38,793 bases of DNA. It comes from Acidimicrobiaceae bacterium. GTDB taxonomy: Bacteria; Actinomycetota; Acidimicrobiia; Acidimicrobiales; Ilumatobacteraceae. Positions 3,386 to 30,469 of the stretch are shown one piece after another. A program made the position numbers and the translations under genes. The DNA lies in the NCBI GenBank assembly GCA_002698945.1, contig NZZV01000056.1, positions 1 through 38,793 of the forward strand. Direction: 5' to 3'. The notes beneath the pieces were generated by a model. It had not been told where the DNA came from. It searched no databases and saw only the letters and a list, made by a program, of their open reading frames with translations. The stretch's first letter is position 1. Each line of letters begins with the position of its first letter.

Positions 3386-3461
3386 GGTGGGCGATATTGG
3401 ACTCGAACCAACGACCCCCGCCGTGTGAAGGCGGTGCTCTAGCCATCTGAGCTAATCGCCC
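3385..3461 (-). tRNA. tRNA-Val (anticodon CAC)
   Basis: The 77-nt cloverleaf folds cleanly on the minus strand. Acceptor GGGCGAT pairs with ATCGCCC. The D-arm is GCTC/GAGC. The anticodon stem CCGCC/GGCGG encloses loop TTCACAC, giving anticodon CAC (valine, GUG codons). The T-arm is GTTGG/CCAAT with loop TTCGAGT. The discriminator base is A and CCA is encoded at 3387-3385. It lies 40 bp downstream of the septum-formation-domain gene on the same strand. Confidence 0.97.
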
Positions 3462-22897: not shown

Positions 22898-25282
22898 GTG
22901 ATCGCCGAATCGCTCGCTGGCAAGCGCATCGCCATCACCGGCTCGACCGGATTCGTCGGCACCGCGCTCGTCGAACGAATCCTGCGCAGCGTGCCCGACT
23001 GCGACCTCGTCCTGCTCGTCCGCGACGGCAAGCGCACCAAGGCCGCCAAACGGGTCGAGAAGGAACTGCTCCGCAACGACGCCTTCGACCGACTCCGCGA
23101 GCAGTACAACGCCCCCGGGTCGAGCGAGTCGTTCGCGGAGATGACGGCCCGTCGGATCACGACGATCGCCGGCGACGTGTCGAGCGACGGACTCGGACTG
23201 AGTGACGACGACCGCCGCACCTTCTCGACCGCCGACGTCGTCATCCACTCCGCAGCGACGGTGTCGTTCGACTCACCGCTCGATCGGGCCGTCGAGATCA
23301 ACCTGCTCGGACCGGTCCGCATCGCGGAGTTGTGCCACGCCCTCGGGATCACGCCCCACCTCGTGGCCGTCAGCACCTGCTACGTGGCCGGCAACCGACG
23401 CGGCAACGCGCCCGAGGTCCTGGTCAGTGAGGGTCCGTTCGACATCGGCCTGTCGTGGAAAGCCGAGGTGGCCGCGGCGCGCCGACTCCGAAGCGACAAC
23501 GACGCCCTCAGTCGTCAGCCCGACCAACTGGCGCGCTTCCGCAAGGAAGCCCGTAACGAGCTCGGCGCCGCTGGTGCACCGGCGCTCGCCGCCAAGACCG
23601 AGCAAATTCGCGAGCGTTGGGTTCGCGACCAGCTCGTCGAGGCGGGCCGGTCACGCGCCGCCAGCGTCGGCTGGCCCGATGCCTACGCCTTCACCAAAGC
23701 ACTCGGCGAACAAGCCCTCACCGACACGGTTGCCGAACATGGCGGCGATGTGCCCGTGTCGATCGTGCGGCCCTCGATCATCGAGTCGGCGTGGGCCGAG
23801 CCCCACCCGGGCTGGATCCGCGGCTTCCGCATGGCCGAACCGGTCATCCTGTCCTACGCCAAGGGTCTCCTGAGCCAATTCCCCGGTGTGCCCGAGGGCA
23901 CGATCGACGTCATCCCGGTCGACATCGTGGTGAGCGCCATCATCGCCGTCGCCGCCGTCGGCCCCGAGGCCGCGCCGCCGATCACCCAGGTCGCCTCCGG
24001 CGGCATCAACCCGCTCACCTACCGCATGCTCATCGACTACGTGAGCACCTGGTTCGGCGAGCATCCGCTGTACGACCCGAAGGGGCAGCCGATCGTGCTC
24101 CCCGAGTGGCGCTTCCCCGGACGCGGCAAGGTCGAAGGCGAGCTGCGTCGGGCCAACCGGGTGCTCGGGTGGAGCGAGAAGACGCTCCAAGCACTGCCAC
24201 TGCGCGGGAAGCAGGCCGAGCTCGCAGCGACGATCGAGTCGCGCCGGGCCGAGGTCGAGGCCGCCACCCAGTACGTCGAGCTGTACGGCCTCTACACCGA
24301 GTGTGAGGCGATCTACCAGGTCGACAACCTGCTCGCCGTCGACCGCCTGCTCGACGACGTCGACCACGAGGTGTTCCAACTCGACCCGCGCATCGTCGAC
24401 TGGCACCACTACGCGACCAACATCCACCTGCCGGCGATCGTGCAGCACGCACGCGTCAAAACGACGCCGGGCAAGTCGCGATCGACCGACCGCATGGTGC
24501 GACTCCGCAAGCAGGTGCTCGACCCGAAGCGCCACGTCGCCGCATTCGACCTCGAGAACACACTGATCGCGTCGAACGTCGTCGAGAGCTACTCGTTCCT
24601 CGCGACCCGCCGGCTCAACACGCCGGAACGGATCCGATACGTCCTCCGCACCCTGTCGGAGGCCCCCGGGCTGCTCCGGATGGACCGCCGCGACCGCACC
24701 GACTTCCTGCGCCACTTCTACCGCCGCTACGAGGACGCGCCGATCGAGCAGATCGAGCTCGACGTCCAGGCGATGATGCACGAGCTGATCCTCACCAAGA
24801 GCTTCCCCGAGGGGATGCGCCGGGTCCGCGACCACCGCGCCGCCGGCCACCGCACCGTGCTGATCACCGGTGCGCTGGAGTTCAACGTCGCGCCGCTGAA
24901 GCCGCTGTTCGACGAGATCATCGCCGCCGAGATGACGACGACCGCCGACGGTCGCTACACCGGCGAGATGAAGTCGGTGCCGCCCACCGGCGAGACACGC
25001 GCCCAGCTGCTGTCCGACTATTGCGACGCCGAAGGGTTCCGCCTCGACGAGTGCGTCGCCTACGCCGACTCGTCGTCGGACCTGCCCCTCTTCGAGGCGG
25101 TCGGCTTTCCCGTCGCCGTCAATCCCGAGACGCGGCTCGCCACGATCGCTCGCAAGCGCGGCTGGCTCGTCGAGCACTGGTCGAAGGCACAGGGAGCGCC
25201 GAAGCCGCTGCTGCCGATCGGCCCGATGCTGAACGACCGCGAGCGGCGACGCCGGTTCGTGTCGAGCGGAGGCGGCCGATGA
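22898..25282 (+). CDS. Fatty acyl-CoA reductase fused to HAD-IB phosphatase
   Basis: A fused protein of 794 residues (from GTG 22898; GTG 22880 is an alternative but lies within the operator). Residues about 1-450 are a thioester-reductase/fatty acyl reductase type SDR: TGSTGFVGTALVERIL (NADPH loop) and YAFTK (Tyr263, Lys267). This type reduces acyl-CoA to aldehyde or alcohol. Residues about 545-750 are a HAD-IB phosphatase: FDLENTL (nucleophile Asp551; the usual second Asp is Glu), LITGALEF, MKSVPPTG and ADSSSDLPLFEAVG. Fusion of these activities suggests a phosphorylated lipid intermediate. The ATGA overlap with the next gene shows operon coupling. Start assignment is uncertain. Confidence 0.88.
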   Translation: MIAESLAGKRIAITGSTGFVGTALVERILRSVPDCDLVLLVRDGKRTKAAKRVEKELLRNDAFDRLREQYNAPGSSESFAEMTARRITTIAGDVSSDGLGLSDDDRRTFSTADVVIHSAATVSFDSPLDRAVEINLLGPVRIAELCHALGITPHLVAVSTCYVAGNRRGNAPEVLVSEGPFDIGLSWKAEVAAARRLRSDNDALSRQPDQLARFRKEARNELGAAGAPALAAKTEQIRERWVRDQLVEAGRSRAASVGWPDAYAFTKALGEQALTDTVAEHGGDVPVSIVRPSIIESAWAEPHPGWIRGFRMAEPVILSYAKGLLSQFPGVPEGTIDVIPVDIVVSAIIAVAAVGPEAAPPITQVASGGINPLTYRMLIDYVSTWFGEHPLYDPKGQPIVLPEWRFPGRGKVEGELRRANRVLGWSEKTLQALPLRGKQAELAATIESRRAEVEAATQYVELYGLYTECEAIYQVDNLLAVDRLLDDVDHEVFQLDPRIVDWHHYATNIHLPAIVQHARVKTTPGKSRSTDRMVRLRKQVLDPKRHVAAFDLENTLIASNVVESYSFLATRRLNTPERIRYVLRTLSEAPGLLRMDRRDRTDFLRHFYRRYEDAPIEQIELDVQAMMHELILTKSFPEGMRRVRDHRAAGHRTVLITGALEFNVAPLKPLFDEIIAAEMTTTADGRYTGEMKSVPPTGETRAQLLSDYCDAEGFRLDECVAYADSSSDLPLFEAVGFPVAVNPETRLATIARKRGWLVEHWSKAQGAPKPLLPIGPMLNDRERRRRFVSSGGGR

Positions 25283-26463
25283 GGGCGCTCCAGATCCGGC
25301 GTTCGGCCGGCAAGTTCGGTCTCGCTCGGGTGGCGTCCGCCGTCGCCCCCGCCACGTCGGCGCGCATCGGACCGCTGGAGTACCGCTCGATCGACGACCC
25401 CGACTGTCCCGGCGACGGGTGGCATCGAGTGCACACACGGCTCGCCGGCATCTGCGGATCCGACCTGTCGCTCGTCGAGGGCCACGCCTCCACCTACTTC
25501 GACGACTACGTGAGCTTCCCGTTCGTGCCCGGCCACGAGGTCGTCGGCGAACTCGACGACGGGACGCGGGTCGTGCTCGAACCGGTCCTCGGGCACGAGG
25601 CGCGCGGCTTCGCTCCCCCGTTCGACGGTGCCGCACCCGGCGACGGAGATGACTACGCCCACCTCGCCACCGGCCACCTCGCGCCCGGCATCCAGACCGG
25701 CTTCTGCTGCTCGACCGGCGGCGGTTGGGCACCCTGGTTCTGGGCCCACGAATCGCAGCTGCATCGCATCGGCGACGACATGCCCGACGAGCGAGCGGTG
25801 CTCGTCGAGCCGATCGCCGGCGGCATCCACGCCGCGCTGCTCGCCGCGCCCACGCTCACCGACGTCGACGACCCGATCGTCGCCGTGCTCGGTGCCGGCA
25901 CCATGGGCCTCGCCGCGATCGCCGGACTGAAGCGGTACCTGCCGGACGCCCAGGTGATCGTCGGAGCTCGGTACCCACACCAGATCGCGCTCGCCGGCGC
26001 ACTCGGCGCCGACGAGGTCGTCCAGGCGAGCAAGCTCGACCGGGCCGTCCGTCGCTCCGCCGGCTGCCACATCATCGGCGGCGTGCTCAGCTCGGGCGCC
26101 CACGTGACGATCGACGCCGTCGGCAACAGCGGCTCAATCACCGACGCCCTGCGCATCACGCGGCCACGCGGACGGGTCGTCCTGCTCGGTATGCCGGCCG
26201 AGGTGCGGGTCGACCTGACCGGGCTCTGGCACCGCGAGACCGAACTCAAGGGTGCGTACACGTACGGCACCGAGACGCTGCCCGACGGCACCACCGCCCG
26301 CACCTTCGACCTGGCGTTCGCGACCGCGAACCACTACGAGGCCGAACGACTGCTGTCGGCCACGTACCGGCTCGACGCCCACGTCGACGCCCTCGCCCAC
26401 GCCGCCGAGGCCGGCCGCCGCGGCGCCGTGAAGATCGCCTTCGACCTCCGAGGAGACACCTGA
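25279..26463 (+). CDS. Zinc-type alcohol/polyol dehydrogenase (MDR superfamily)
   Basis: A 394-residue enzyme, starting within the previous stop (ATGA overlap). ICGSDLSLVEGHA, VPGHEVVGEL and a Rossmann AVLGAGTMGLAAIAGL are medium-chain dehydrogenase signatures; Cys and His-Glu for the catalytic zinc are present. The usual CxxCxxC structural-zinc lobe is replaced by a Gly/Asp-rich loop followed by CC, so it probably lacks that site. With the reductase it may interconvert long-chain alcohol and aldehyde, or act on another operon intermediate. The stop is followed immediately by the start of the repeat ORF. Confidence 0.85.
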   Translation: MRALQIRRSAGKFGLARVASAVAPATSARIGPLEYRSIDDPDCPGDGWHRVHTRLAGICGSDLSLVEGHASTYFDDYVSFPFVPGHEVVGELDDGTRVVLEPVLGHEARGFAPPFDGAAPGDGDDYAHLATGHLAPGIQTGFCCSTGGGWAPWFWAHESQLHRIGDDMPDERAVLVEPIAGGIHAALLAAPTLTDVDDPIVAVLGAGTMGLAAIAGLKRYLPDAQVIVGARYPHQIALAGALGADEVVQASKLDRAVRRSAGCHIIGGVLSSGAHVTIDAVGNSGSITDALRITRPRGRVVLLGMPAEVRVDLTGLWHRETELKGAYTYGTETLPDGTTARTFDLAFATANHYEAERLLSATYRLDAHVDALAHAAEAGRRGAVKIAFDLRGDT

Positions 26464-26472
26464 TCATGCCCC
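26441..26472 (+). repeat. Left direct repeat flanking the 230-bp insertion
   Basis: The sequence at 26445-26472 equals 26675-26702 base for base (28 bp); extended to 26441-26472 and 26671-26702 there is one mismatch. It holds the end of the dehydrogenase gene, the GAGGAG ribosome binding site, a stop and an ATG. The duplicated segment encloses the palindromic-repeat ORF. Confidence 0.9.
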
Positions 26473-26693
26473 CCAGGCCGCCCGTCCCCGGACCCACAGT
26501 CGATTTAATCGCCCAGGCGTCCACCGGTGGACACACAGTCGATTTAATCGCCCAGGCGTCCGCCGCTCCCCGACCCCCCGGACACACAGTCGATTTAATC
26601 CACCAGGCGTCCACCGGTGGACATACAGCCGATTTAATCGCCCAGGTGTCCGCTGGCGCCGGGATGGAACTCGCCCTCCGAGGAGACACCTGA
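26466..26693 (+). CDS. 75-residue multi-repeat ORF, possible peptide precursor or repeat artefact
   Basis: The frame from ATG 26466 to TGA 26693 lies in the operon between the dehydrogenase and the LarA-like gene. It uses an exact copy of the downstream gene's GAGGAG ribosome binding site. Translation starts MPPRPPVPGP and contains four copies of a TVDLIAQAS-like core (TVDLIAQAS, TVDLIAQAS, TVDLIHQAS, TADLIAQVS) linked by TGGH or a Pro-rich spacer, then ends ALRGDT, the duplicated C-terminal codons of the dehydrogenase. Spacing of cores is 13, 17 and 13 residues, so all stay in frame. Among copies the core differences change residues (A to H, V to A, A to V); a His codon differs silently. This weakens the case for protein-level constraint. 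It could be a multi-core ribosomal peptide, a short linker protein, or a fortuitous reading of a palindromic element. No modifying enzymes typical of RiPPs are recognisable beside it. Confidence 0.4.
   Translation: MPPRPPVPGPTVDLIAQASTGGHTVDLIAQASAAPRPPGHTVDLIHQASTGGHTADLIAQVSAGAGMELALRGDT
26485..26665. repeat. Four palindromic units within the operon
   Basis: A core CGATTTAATCG, itself palindromic around its central T, begins at 26501, 26540, 26591 and 26630. In copy three the right half is altered. Around it lie GGAC...GTCC ends; GTCCACCGGTGGAC, a perfect palindrome, joins units 1-2 and 3-4. The AT-rich core is unusual in this GC-rich sequence. Each unit can form a hairpin in RNA, so the cluster could lower or tune expression of the downstream genes. 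No further copy was seen elsewhere in the window. Confidence 0.8.
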
Positions 26694-26702
26694 TCATGCC
26701 CC
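26671..26702 (+). repeat. Right direct repeat flanking the 230-bp insertion
   Basis: Second copy of the repeat described at 26441-26472, offset by exactly 230 bp. It contains the ribosome binding site and start codon of the LarA-like gene, so that gene is intact after the insertion or duplication. Confidence 0.9.
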
Positions 26703-28285
26703 GTCCCGGATTCGTCCTCGACGTCGACAAGTCGACGCCGCCGGTGCTGTTCTGGCGCGGCGAGGGGTTCAGCCTCGAGAAACTGCCCGCCGACCGCAGC
26801 CGCATCATCTACCCCGCCGAGCCGCTCCCGGGCCTCGACGACCCCGACGGTCACATCCGCGACGCGCTCCTGAACCCCCACGACATGGAGCCGCTGCCGG
26901 CCCTCCTGCGGCCCGACATGAAGCTGACGATCTGTTTCGACGACGCCAGCCTGTCCTTGCCGAAGATGCGTCGCCCCGACATCCGCCAACGCATCATCGA
27001 AGCCGTACTCGATCACGCGGCAGAGGCGGGCGTCGACGACATCCACATCATCGCTGCGCTCGGTTTGCATCGGCGGATGCACGACTACGAACTGCGCCAC
27101 GTGCTCGGCGATCGCATCTTCGATGCGTTCGAGCCCCGCGGTCTGCTGTACCAGCACGACGCCGAAGACCCCGACAACCTGGCCGTGCTCGGGGAGACCG
27201 ACCACGGTGAGGTGCTCGAGATCAACAAGCGGGTCGCCGAGAGCGACCTCGTCGTCTACGCCAACGTGAACCAGGTGGCGATGGACGGCGGCTGGAAATC
27301 GATCACCACCGGCTTCGCGTCGTATCGCTGCCTGGCAAACCACCACACGCCGACCCACCTGCAGGAGACCAAGAGCCTGATGGGTCACCGCGACCACTCG
27401 GCGCTCCACAAGAGCATCTGGCGCCTCGGCAAGGTGCTGCGCGACAACGGACCGAAGATCTTCCAGGTCGAGACGTCGATCAACACCGCTGCATTCCCCG
27501 ACACGTTCGGCTTCCTCAGCAAGCGCGAGTGGGAGTGGACGGCCAAGGACCGGGCGCTGTACCTCGCCACCGAGAAGTCGCTCAAGCGCATGCCGAACCG
27601 GGCCAAGCGCAAGATCTTCCACTCGATGGAGGCGCCGTACGAGATGACCAGTGTGCAGGCCGGCTTCACCCCGTCGGTGCACGAGATCACCCTCGAACAC
27701 GTCTACGAGCAACACCTCGTGCCGGTGGAGGGCCAGACCGACATCCTCACGATGGGGATCCCGTTCATCTGCCCCTACAACCCCGAGGGCATCATGAACC
27801 CGATCCTCGTGATGTGCATGGGACTCGGCTACATGTTCAACATGTACCGCAACAAACCGCTGGTGCGCGACGGCGGGGTCATCATCATGACCCACCCGAC
27901 GTACCGCGAGTTCAACCCGGTGCACCACCCGAGCTACATCGACTTCTTCGACGAGGTGCTCGCCGACACGACCGACCCGGTCGTCATGGCCGAGAAGTAC
28001 GAGCGCAAGTACGCCGAGGACGAGTGGTACACGCACCTGTACCGCACCGGCAACGCCTATCACGGCGTACATCCGTTCTACGCCTGGTACTGGGGCGCCC
28101 ACGGCCAGCAGTGGGCCGGCAAGGTGATCGTCGTCGGCGGCGATCCGTCGACGGTGCGCCGACTCGGCTTCACCCCGGCGAGCACGATGGACGACGCGTT
28201 CGAGATCGCCTCCGACGTCGTCGGCCGCTCCCCCAGCATCTCCCACCTCCACGTCCCCGGCGTCCTGGTCGCCGACGTCCACTGA
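26696..28285 (+). CDS. LarA/DUF2088-family protein (lactate-racemase-like)
   Basis: A 529-residue protein starting at ATG 26696 behind GAGGAG. GLHRRMHDYELRHVLG (His125), GGWKSITTGFAS (Lys201) and ANHH (His217) correspond in spacing to His108, Lys184 and His200 of remembered lactate racemase LarA, an enzyme with a nickel-pincer nucleotide cofactor tethered on Lys184. The second catalytic His (174 in LarA) falls on Val191 or Asn192 here, and the DDxTR motif is replaced by DDASLSLP. Chemistry may therefore differ from lactate racemisation. Two-hydroxy-acid epimerisation or related redox chemistry on an operon intermediate is possible. No larB, larC or larE cofactor genes are in this window. Confidence 0.78.
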   Translation: MPRPGFVLDVDKSTPPVLFWRGEGFSLEKLPADRSRIIYPAEPLPGLDDPDGHIRDALLNPHDMEPLPALLRPDMKLTICFDDASLSLPKMRRPDIRQRIIEAVLDHAAEAGVDDIHIIAALGLHRRMHDYELRHVLGDRIFDAFEPRGLLYQHDAEDPDNLAVLGETDHGEVLEINKRVAESDLVVYANVNQVAMDGGWKSITTGFASYRCLANHHTPTHLQETKSLMGHRDHSALHKSIWRLGKVLRDNGPKIFQVETSINTAAFPDTFGFLSKREWEWTAKDRALYLATEKSLKRMPNRAKRKIFHSMEAPYEMTSVQAGFTPSVHEITLEHVYEQHLVPVEGQTDILTMGIPFICPYNPEGIMNPILVMCMGLGYMFNMYRNKPLVRDGGVIIMTHPTYREFNPVHHPSYIDFFDEVLADTTDPVVMAEKYERKYAEDEWYTHLYRTGNAYHGVHPFYAWYWGAHGQQWAGKVIVVGGDPSTVRRLGFTPASTMDDAFEIASDVVGRSPSISHLHVPGVLVADVH

Positions 28286-29295: not shown

Positions 29296-30469
29296 CCCTG
29301 GCCGCCGCCGCCCGCACGACCGCCGTCGAGTTTCTCGACGCTCCGGGCCCGGTGACCCCGGTCAGCAGCAGCTCGCCCGAACGCCTCGAAGCAACGAGTT
29401 CGGGCCCCATCAATCTCGGTGACCCAAGTCCGGAGTGCCGAACCACCGCCGCCGAGAACCCACGGCCAGCCGGCACCCCACCTTCCCGGTGGCTCCCGTC
29501 CGGAAACCCGCACCACCGCCGCCGAGAACCCACGGCCAGCCGGCACCCCACCTTCTCGGCAGCTCCCGTCCGAAACCCCGCACCACGCCCACCGAGATCA
29601 GTGCGACGAGGTCGAGGTGCATCCAGTCGCGCCTCCCTCGCCCATCGCCTCGAAGCAATCGATTCGCCCACCAGTTCTCGGCGGCAGCAGTTGCACTTTC
29701 CGCAACCAGCGCCACCGAGATCTCAGCGTCGACCGTCAGCGCAGACATCTCGGCGGCATCGGATGCGGAACACGCAACCGAATCCGCCGAGAACGGTCGG
29801 CACTGACCACGACGCTGACCCGAGCAACGACGCCTCGGGCAACGACGCCTCGAAGCAGCGAGCTGGACTCCCGTCACGTCTCGGTGACCCGAAGTCCCAC
29901 GTCTCAGACCATCCCGCCGAGCATCTCGCCGTCGCCAGTTCTCGGCGGCAACGGTTGCACTGTCCGCAACCAGCGCCACCGAGAACCACGGCCAGGCCAG
30001 CCATGACACGATCGCGGCGACAACCGCAGCGGAAAGCACACCCAACGCCACCGAGAACTCGACACCCGCGTCTCGGCGGCTCCCGTCCGGGAACCCGCAC
30101 CACAGCCGCCGAGAACCCACCACCACCCCACACCCCACGATCGCGGTGGGAACCGTTGCGGAGAACGCACCTGACGCCACCGAGAAGCCTCAACGCACGG
30201 TCTCGGGGCGATCGGTCCAGCCTCCTGGGCTCGGGCGCCGCGGAACTGGGGAGGTATCAGCTCACTGCTTCACAGCACAAGCGGTGCGAAACCAACGCCC
30301 GAGGACCACCGACACCCTGGGCATCCTCGATCTCGTCGACCGGTCCGGGGCCGCTGCACCCCGCCTGCCCGACGACACGAGGCCATTCGTGACCGAGACG
30401 GTTCATCGGCTCAGCTGGGATCCCGGACCAGGCTGCGCTGCCGAGTCGGAGCAGTCAGACGAGCCGTGG
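29296..30469. other. 1.17-kb intergenic region with palindrome array
   Basis: The interval between the convergent acyltransferase and LysM genes has no gene with recognisable domains. Overlapping open frames exist on both strands only because the repeats are GC-rich. It holds ten 44-46-bp imperfect palindromes (separate entry) and a second short motif CGCCTCGAAGCA at 29382, 29646 and 29846, each about 30-33 bp before units 1, 4 and 6. The last 280 bp before the LysM gene (30190-30469) shows nothing definite. Confidence 0.6.
29414..30185. repeat. Array of ten imperfect-palindrome units (44-46 bp)
   Basis: Units lie at 29414-29457, 29484-29527, 29554-29597, 29676-29720, 29748-29792, 29879-29922, 29940-29984, 30011-30056, 30071-30114 and 30140-30185. 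Most open with TCTCGG(C/T)G and all end near (A/G)CCGAG(A/C), so the ends are inverted repeats. Middles often contain CCG(G/A)AA or TTGC...GCAA arms. Units 8 and 10 open with ATCGCGG instead. Units 1-3 also share 26-bp spacers and form a 70-bp direct tandem repeat; other spacers differ in length and sequence. This is a REP/BIME-like pattern rather than a CRISPR. Confidence 0.85.

Follow-up and report, generated by a model that had tools for sequence, protein, structure and literature searches.

We analysed a stretch of 38,793 nucleotides, contig NZZV01000056.1 of an Acidimicrobiaceae bacterium (hereafter the window, always meant at its full length), and in it the block at 26441-26702, where four quasi-palindromic units of 33 bp, of the pattern GGAC-N8-GATTNAATC-N8-GTCC, are bounded by 28-bp direct repeats. 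This block is a member of a clade-specific, orphan family of extragenic palindromes resembling the repetitive extragenic palindromic (REP) sequences. We consider it somewhat probable that the family has spread as single-stranded hairpins and is homogenised by copying between sites. The mechanism, that is the hairpins on the lagging strand and the homogenisation between sites, is what we infer from the copy number, the comparison of species and the orientation of the arrays.

The units of the block are spaced by 39, 51 and 39 bp (Table 1). The direct repeats, TCG[A/C]CCTCCGAGGAGACACCTGATCATGCCCC in full, occupy 26441-26472 and 26671-26702, lie 230 bp apart from start to start and are identical at 31 of 32 positions, 28 bp being exact. 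An open reading frame (ORF) of 75 codons and a stop, from the ATG at 26466 to 26691-26693, runs through the units within a longer open frame (25725-26693). An earlier sequence-only reading of the window had given these coordinates and spacings, this ORF and the stop, ribosome binding site and ATG in the repeats correctly. It had also proposed a mobile or replicative repeat element, and this is borne out by the 30 arrays found in the same genome and by the empty orthologous operon of a sister species.

We searched the genome of the window (G000, 82% complete) with the unit pattern: it contains 98 exact matches and 106 with at most one mismatch, and the reversed pattern, taken as a control, gave none in both cases. 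The window block itself, used as a query, matched this genome 65 times, in many places. When chained, with up to four mismatches tolerated near good units, the 106 units form 30 arrays of 1 to 8 units each. We call Y the strand which reads GGACGCCTGGTGGATT..AATCGCCTGKGTGTCC and X its complement; the orientation is constant within each of these arrays, two units being unclassifiable by our script, and in one array of the sister species (L109) the units were scored X, Y and X in turn. Pairs of units spaced by 39 bp are the rule, usually arranged as GGAC..GTCC-ACCGGT-GGAC..GTCC, and the arrays differ in unit number mostly by steps of 39 bp. Over three species, the hexamer between units so spaced is ACCGGT in 61 of 105 cases, and of the 67 arrays, 34 have CCC as their outer three bases on the left side and 34 have GGG on the right side.

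The exact pattern was found, among 61 genomes of relatives, in three carriers belonging to one genus (98, 66 and 10 units), with no unit in the 51 genomes of other genera. With one mismatch allowed, ten genomes of the genus gave the same number of carriers: the window genome with 106 units, the sister species G001 (a single contig of 4.775 Mb) with 80, of which 77 were located, and G004, which we take to be Ilumatobacter sp. HKST-UBA13 (79% complete), with 40. In a sample of 395 genomes of the class, to which G004 does not belong, the exact pattern is confined to the window genome and G001. A stricter two-unit pattern run over the genome_contigs collection, from which the window's own record and very near ones are possibly excluded, matched only four contigs of Ilumatobacter sp. 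HKST-UBA13, and viral contigs gave no match to the dimer pattern.

Most arrays lie between genes: 27 of the 30 arrays of the window genome are outside ORFs called by a simple codon-score gene caller, which is crude. With the same caller, the 41 arrays of G000 and G001 which have both neighbours called (4 of them inside a called ORF) are found in 10 divergent, 13 convergent and 18 co-directional contexts. A terminator function was considered and rejected, convergent pairs (13 of 41) not being favoured. The REPs surveyed by Di Nocera et al. (PMC3733652) sit chiefly between co-directional and convergent genes, whereas the present family also occupies divergent spaces.

At the window site, we compared the gene downstream of the block with its orthologues in six other genomes of the genus; the block is in none of the stretches of up to 330 bases upstream of their first residues. 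In G001, where the protein is 98% identical, the 28 bp occur only once, shortened by one base, at the place where the window has two copies. Hence, the window array is an insertion which duplicated 28 bp containing a stop, a ribosome-binding site and a start, and we regard the block as a recent-looking insertion of the family; further array sites of the window genome are also empty in G001. Among 59 arrays for which both flanks were available, the window array is the only one with a flank-to-flank match longer than 10 bp (the next longest is 10 bp), and flanks of different arrays match over up to 15 bp. A private neutral tandem duplication, which only looks repetitive, would agree with the uniqueness of this duplication and with the six orthologous regions lacking the block. 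It is refuted by the 29 other arrays of the same genome and by more than 100 units in two other species, and we give it practically no chance. The sequence-only reading would have settled for it had the block been missing from orthologous operons and from everywhere else; the former was found, but copies elsewhere are many. Its related idea of a recent tandem duplication with growth of repeats stands for the duplicated 28 bp and the doubled dimer, and falls for the unit, which belongs to a dispersed family. Other, unrelated short palindromes were noticed by eye at the same intergenic place upstream of the downstream gene (L097 and L098), AGTTGTGCCTGGCACAACT in G009 and AAGTTGTGTCTGACACAACTT in G006, and in G008 a stretch with inverted matches.

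The ORF which spans all four units with a start and a ribosome-binding site had suggested a multi-core peptide precursor, with TVDLIAQAS as the coding repeat. The spacings 39 and 51 of the block are, as it happens, both divisible by three. However, the 49 spacings other than 39 in 67 arrays leave remainders 0, 1 and 2 on division by three in 14, 17 and 18 cases, the ATG of the ORF is a duplicate of the one that starts the downstream gene, and the two adjoining genes, the only ones examined in this respect, code for a dehydrogenase and a lactate-racemase-like protein. We judged the ORF incidental, because its start codon is duplicated and no frame constraint exists in other arrays, and the precursor gene, which the sequence-only reading had put forward, is therefore very improbable.

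We then consider the unit as a structure. The outer GGAC/GTCC and inner GATT/AATC are paired, depending on the position, in 62 to 66 of the 66 distinct units of the window genome, and the arms between them pair only partially. In G000, deviations are seen in 8 of 1696 cells at the 16 fixed positions, against 259 of 1696 at the 16 variable arm positions (fixed positions of G001: 19 of 1168 cells). This contrast between fixed and variable positions is an upper estimate, because the search pattern favours intact fixed positions; a block search independent of them reached the same places as the pattern. Folded as RNA of the + strand (z -6.1), as RNA of the - strand (z -6.8) and as DNA of the - strand (z -8.05), the window array was each time better than all of 200 shuffles. 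The folding supports the hairpin potential named by the sequence-only reading, though the arms do not covary; at gathering scores the array matches no Rfam family. The fold of the Y strand is more stable than that of its complement in 63 of the 66 distinct units of G000 and in 47 of 52 units of G001. This gap arises because GCCTGG-like strings are direct, not inverted, in both arms, the middle of the stem consisting on one strand mostly of G-T wobbles.

Such an alternation of fixed and variable parts with a period near 39 also recalls the guide-RNA arrays of TIGR-Tas systems (edge repeat, spacer, loop repeat, spacer), which are similar in unit layout and period (PMC12045711). But what lies between the fixed parts varies around a single consensus, unlike free spacers, the arrays occupy 30 dispersed sites instead of standing beside one gene, and the Nop domain PF01798 was found in none of the three carrier genomes, two of which are about 80% complete. 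We give hardly any credit to this explanation.

The comparison of flanks shows that 18 array sites are common to at least two species and seven to all three. Both flanks match in at least one pair of species at 13 of these sites and one flank at the other five; at L074_5313, in each of the three species, the alignable flanks on either side reach up to a few bp from the array. The flanking DNA at shared sites is mostly 76-92% identical between species. A nineteenth shared site is likely, between L065_16, at a contig start of G000, and L112_3026, a G001 array split by an insertion sequence (IS): both adjoin the same gene, the match starting 9 bp past the G000 array and about 28 bp past the half-unit to the right of the IS. 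Compared by hand, the strand and the orientation of units agree at the 18 sites, the exception being L104/L132, where the G004 units are ambiguous. A different palindrome, GTCGGATGATGTCAGACATCATCCGAC, is found in G001 at L117 (C1, about 3.991 Mb), and a GTGAACAATTT..AAATTGTTCAC palindrome in G000 at L130 (C31, about 13.45 kb), each at a site which carries an array in the other of these two species.

The arrays of each species, those at shared sites included, follow a unit consensus particular to that species. Thus, columns 11-12/22-23 are CC/GG in all 42 G004 units examined, while CC at columns 11-12 occurs in 3 of 106 units of G000 and 0 of 73 of G001, and GG at columns 22-23 in 1 of 106 and 2 of 73. 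Over the 16 variable arm columns, the difference between units is 1.8 within an array and 3.5 from one array to another of the same genome (pooled over G000 and G001). For G000 against G001 it is 2.8 in orthologous arrays, compared with 3.8 in non-orthologous ones; the corresponding values are 5.9 and 6.7 for G000 and G004, and 7.1 and 6.9 for G001 and G004. By these differences, units keep a weak memory of their site between G000 and G001, a small one between G000 and G004, and none between G001 and G004. The unit number at one site also differs by species (4, 2 and 4 at L069/L102/L157). The species-specific consensus at shared sites amounts to concerted evolution; the alternative, that each species filled these sites on its own, is unlikely because the flank matches are close. 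Concerted change would follow from conversion among dispersed copies as well as from re-insertion into existing arrays, and the data do not choose between the two.

The orientation of the arrays was plotted on the single contig of G001. At first sight, there were 9 Y and 3 X arrays below 2.1 Mb, and 0 Y and 9 X above 2.8 Mb (the IS-split array at 1.788 Mb being counted once). The third-position skew and the strands of the genes gave a weak indication that the origin lies near the contig ends; dnaA, dnaN, parA and parB lie at 4.67-4.68 Mb, hence we placed the origin there, and the terminus, if opposite, falls near 2.29 Mb. The X orientation was predicted beforehand for the arrays still missing above 3.35 Mb; the two that were found are X, with seven units in all, of which one is unclassified, and they match no region examined in G000 or G004. 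The final counts for the two replichores are 9 Y and 3 X against 0 Y and 11 X. This places the Y form on the template of the lagging strand in 20 of 23 arrays (binomial p 0.0005, Fisher p 0.0003). Of the arrays which also occur in another species, 14 of 15 fit this rule, and of the rest 4 of 6; if L112_3026 is counted as shared, these fractions become 15 of 16 and 3 of 5.

From this we infer the following course of events. The Y strand, which forms the stronger hairpin, would fold while single-stranded on the lagging-strand template, and a trans-acting enzyme for single-stranded DNA, of the HuH/TnpA-REP type and perhaps extinct, would have seeded new sites. After seeding, hairpin-driven slippage or unequal recombination would add or remove units, and copying between dispersed arrays, by conversion or by re-insertion into existing arrays, would keep them alike. 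Precedents for such a mechanism are the mirrored tandem REP arrays of Pseudomonas fluorescens SBW25 (PMC3116915) and the preference of IS200/IS605 relatives for the lagging strand (PMC6006769). An event of this kind would, in the window, have put an array between two nearly abutting genes, duplicating the 28 bp with their stop, ribosome-binding site and start; both neighbours would keep intact signals, and the array would make no peptide by design. REPs are common, and the question of how they spread and stay alike concerns above all the families without a transposase. Three close species which have sites in common, each with its own consensus, make homogenisation separable from new insertion, and so provide a natural experiment on co-evolving dispersed repeats; the fork polarity and the IS found only at unit centres (see below) may serve as handles for testing a single-strand mechanism in Actinobacteriota.

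Several results weigh against this course of events. The arm columns show no covariation: at positions 5, 7, 8, 11 and 12, in both genomes, Watson-Crick pairs are no more frequent than expected from independent columns (in G000, 14 against 25.4 at position 5, and 11 against 19.9 at position 11). The units of G004 fold about equally on both strands, Y being better in 17 of 32, and their fourth outer pair is broken, the left end reading GGAA in 28 of 42 units. No constant target duplication is found beyond chance, the 28 bp of the window being unique among the 59 arrays. There is no unit, even with up to three substitutions, at 11 loci of Y1 transposases, up to 1.5 kb on each side included, and at the three Y1 loci examined the flanking palindromes are of the GGGTCAGGTG, GGTCAGACCCC and GGGGTCAGGCACC kinds, unrelated to the window unit. 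As to polarity, the test came after the pattern had been noticed, and only two arrays are prospective. L109, one of the 20 fitting arrays, is Y by a second scoring and by its clear orthologue L070; without it, 19 of 22 arrays fit. Finally, 13 array sites of G000 have no array in G001 (three of them are common to G004); placed on the G001 map, 7 of 13 fit when typed by hand and 8 of 13 when computed, the difference being one array of ambiguous orientation, L076. The comparison of old and young arrays rests on the map of G001, and as the G000 sites without an array in G001 show no fork polarity, polarity may have been enriched by selection over time, or the G001 map may be invalid for G000.

We searched 13 genomes for PF01797, leaving out G009: Y1 transposase genes are present in 8, namely in 8 of 9 members of the genus (one or two each, the only member without one being the 1.3-Mb G007) and in none of the 4 genomes from other families of the order. 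The unrelated palindromes mean that the Y1 enzymes of the three loci have palindromes of their own, and in that sense the window family is an orphan. The palindrome GGGTCAGGTG, which stands beside the G001 gene for a REP-associated tyrosine transposase (RAYT), is itself dispersed, with 83 copies in 1.48 Mb of G001 and none of the reversed control. Another dispersed motif of G001, GTCAGACATC, has 41 copies in 1.48 Mb, again with none of the reversed control. A resident RAYT was thus rejected as a linked mover, the genes being present but having other palindromes in the flanks examined.

One could still imagine that a resident RAYT (TnpA-REP), with a recognition range beyond the palindromes at its own flanks, moves the units in trans as ordinary REPs. 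The presence of Y1 genes in nearly all members of the genus searched, the three carriers included, speaks for this, as does the match of the G001 protein to the NCBIfam REP-associated tyrosine transposase (53 bits, below the cut-off of 80), and fork polarity is what one expects of transposition by single strands, the relatives of IS200/IS605 preferring the lagging strand (PMC6006769). On the other hand, besides the unrelated palindromes at three loci, the units lack a GTAG foot, RAYT-like genes also exist in members of the genus without any unit, and the Y1 match of G000 (L088, C46) contains one TAG in its open stretch and its frame stops early, so that the gene may be broken. We therefore find this explanation improbable.

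We also weighed a function for the host, in which the arrays would bind a protein organising or replicating the chromosome, like the protein sites in REPs and the fork-polar motifs, selection fixing their place and orientation, and the change across a whole species reflecting co-evolution with the protein. The near-constancy of the fixed positions in spite of the many shared sites with diverged flanks, the strong polarity of the shared G001 arrays and the lack of any relation between arrays and gene 3' ends are all in its favour. But 7 of 10 genomes of the genus (one of only 1.3 Mb) do without the family, which hence has no essential role in the genus, the conservation of columns is partly ascertained by the search pattern, and the unit number at one site varies by species. 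We hold such a function to be unlikely, though the likeliest of the alternatives. It is doubtful, too, that the some 25-30 arrays would be a single genome-wide unit, a fork-polar dispersed system at places fixed by the host, homogenised species by species, without a transposase of its own and co-evolving with a putative replication or nucleoid protein.

Returning to a family spread as hairpins, we compared it with known repeats. It is REP-like in behaviour: the palindrome of 33 bp falls in the class of 20-40 bp, lies mostly between genes, is present in high copy number and is clustered. It is nevertheless devoid of the defining features of the named REP superfamilies, the foot and the linked transposase. 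The unpaired GTAG foot is absent, the unit ending in the paired GGAC/GTCC; so is the unpaired CGTC end with a stem of 8-9 bp, CGTC occurring in many units but within the paired end. The hallmark of GTAG REPs and REPtrons, a RAYT gene flanked by the same repeats, was not found at the 11 Y1 loci. The REPs and bacterial interspersed mosaic elements (BIMEs), including the tandem REP arrays of Pseudomonas fluorescens SBW25 (PMC3116915), are likewise short extragenic palindromes in about a hundred copies, in pairs or tandem clusters that include flanking DNA. Some of the SBW25 tandem arrays are forward on one side of the genome and reverse on the other, a mirroring similar to the orientation of the G001 arrays. 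Unlike REPs and BIMEs, the window family has no GTAG foot and no RAYT beside its units, its units are in direct orientation (one G001 array being mixed), and it was seen only in three species of one genus of Actinobacteriota.

The CGTC-tagged REPs (PMC3733652) are similarly abundant, apparently without a dedicated transposase, in the presence of unrelated IS200-type transposases. They differ in their unpaired CGTC end, stems of 8-9 bp and mostly HH dimers, as opposed to the paired GGAC/GTCC ends, dyad of 33 bp and direct dimers described here. The resident Y1 transposases examined look like the TIRYT genes of the same survey, being flanked by palindromes of the (G)GGTCAG type; the terminal palindromes of these TIRYT-like genes are a separate family, and the window unit does not stand beside such genes. 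The word Actinobacteria is absent from the main text of that survey. Among the matches listed, our literature searches gave nothing about such repeats in Actinobacteria; on palindromic repeats of Ilumatobacter the only match, judged by its title, dealt with virus-host pairing and defence, and on the concerted evolution of REPINs there were only unrelated matches.

An IS5-family transposase gene (NF033580, 144.6 bits, cut-off 110) separates two pieces of one G001 array. The insertion took place in the middle of a unit, GATTTA-IS-TTAATC, with duplication of TTA. The IS protein occurs at two places in ten genomes of the genus, both in G001, and the second copy (a match in two pieces) likewise interrupts a unit at its centre, with the TTA duplication. 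By our own arithmetic (80 x 33 bp of 4.775 Mb), the chance that two of two copies fall in units is about 3 in 10 million. The contig C49 of G000 starts with an IS end resembling this one, again at that position of a unit. The IS5-family element is the sole IS seen in arrays; since its terminal repeat differs from the unit, since it is inserted into units and since a flank duplication is seen in 1 of 59 arrays, we rejected the idea that the units are miniature inverted-repeat elements (MITEs) of this IS. An autonomous partner between paired arrays was also rejected: the genes found there code for a DUF1353 protein, an AbiEi-like/MTES_1575 protein and the IS5-family transposase, and only the last is mobile, itself being inserted into units. 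The association of the IS with the units resembles type 1 of Tobes and Pareja (PMC1525189), exemplified by the REP-targeting ISPsy8 and ISRm22, which also use one fixed position of the repeat, at its axis of symmetry, with a 3-bp duplication in the case of ISPsy8. The G001 element differs from them in belonging to the IS5 family, in having two copies only and in its target, an actinobacterial repeat.

Table 1. Positions in the window of the parts of the block and of the two adjoining genes.
Feature	Position	Strand	Remarks
Upstream gene, zinc-binding dehydrogenase	25279..26463	+	PF00107, PF08240
Left 28-bp direct repeat	26445..26472	+	Upstream stop TGA 26461-26463, GAGGAG, first ATG 26466-26468
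75-codon ORF through array	26466..26693	+	Judged incidental: duplicated start codon; other arrays without frame constraint
Non-unit inserted DNA, left of array	26473..26489	.	Missing at empty G001 site
Repeat unit 1, 33 bp	26490..26522	-	GCCTGG-rich Y form reads 5'-3' on - strand
Linker ACCGGT, units 1/2	26523..26528	.	Self-complementary hexamer
Repeat unit 2	26529..26561	-	More stable fold on - strand: -11.9 vs -6.6 kcal/mol
Spacer between dimers, 18 bp	26562..26579	.	
Repeat unit 3	26580..26612	-	
Linker ACCGGT, units 3/4	26613..26618	.	
Repeat unit 4	26619..26651	-	
Non-unit inserted DNA, right of array	26652..26674	.	Missing at empty G001 site
Right 28-bp direct repeat	26675..26702	+	Carries ATG 26696 of downstream gene; single copy, 1 base shorter, at empty G001 site
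Downstream gene, 529 aa, lactate racemase N-terminal domain	26696..28285	+	PF09861

Finally, we must note some other repeats and one RNA gene of the window. The region 29300-30200 is rich in TCTCGGCGGC/GCCGCCGAGA, 7 of the 9 matches in the window lying at 29448-30105, and a 70-bp tandem repeat occupies 29438-29597. This motif is also found 9 times in L073 and in 6 other loci of G000 that were examined, without a control, and may be a dispersed repeat family. A 360-bp tandem repeat, with 2.2 copies and 81% matches, lies within the first 800 positions, at the start of the window, and may be a repetitive coding sequence. The only Rfam match in the window at gathering scores is a tRNA at 3388-3461, on the - strand.

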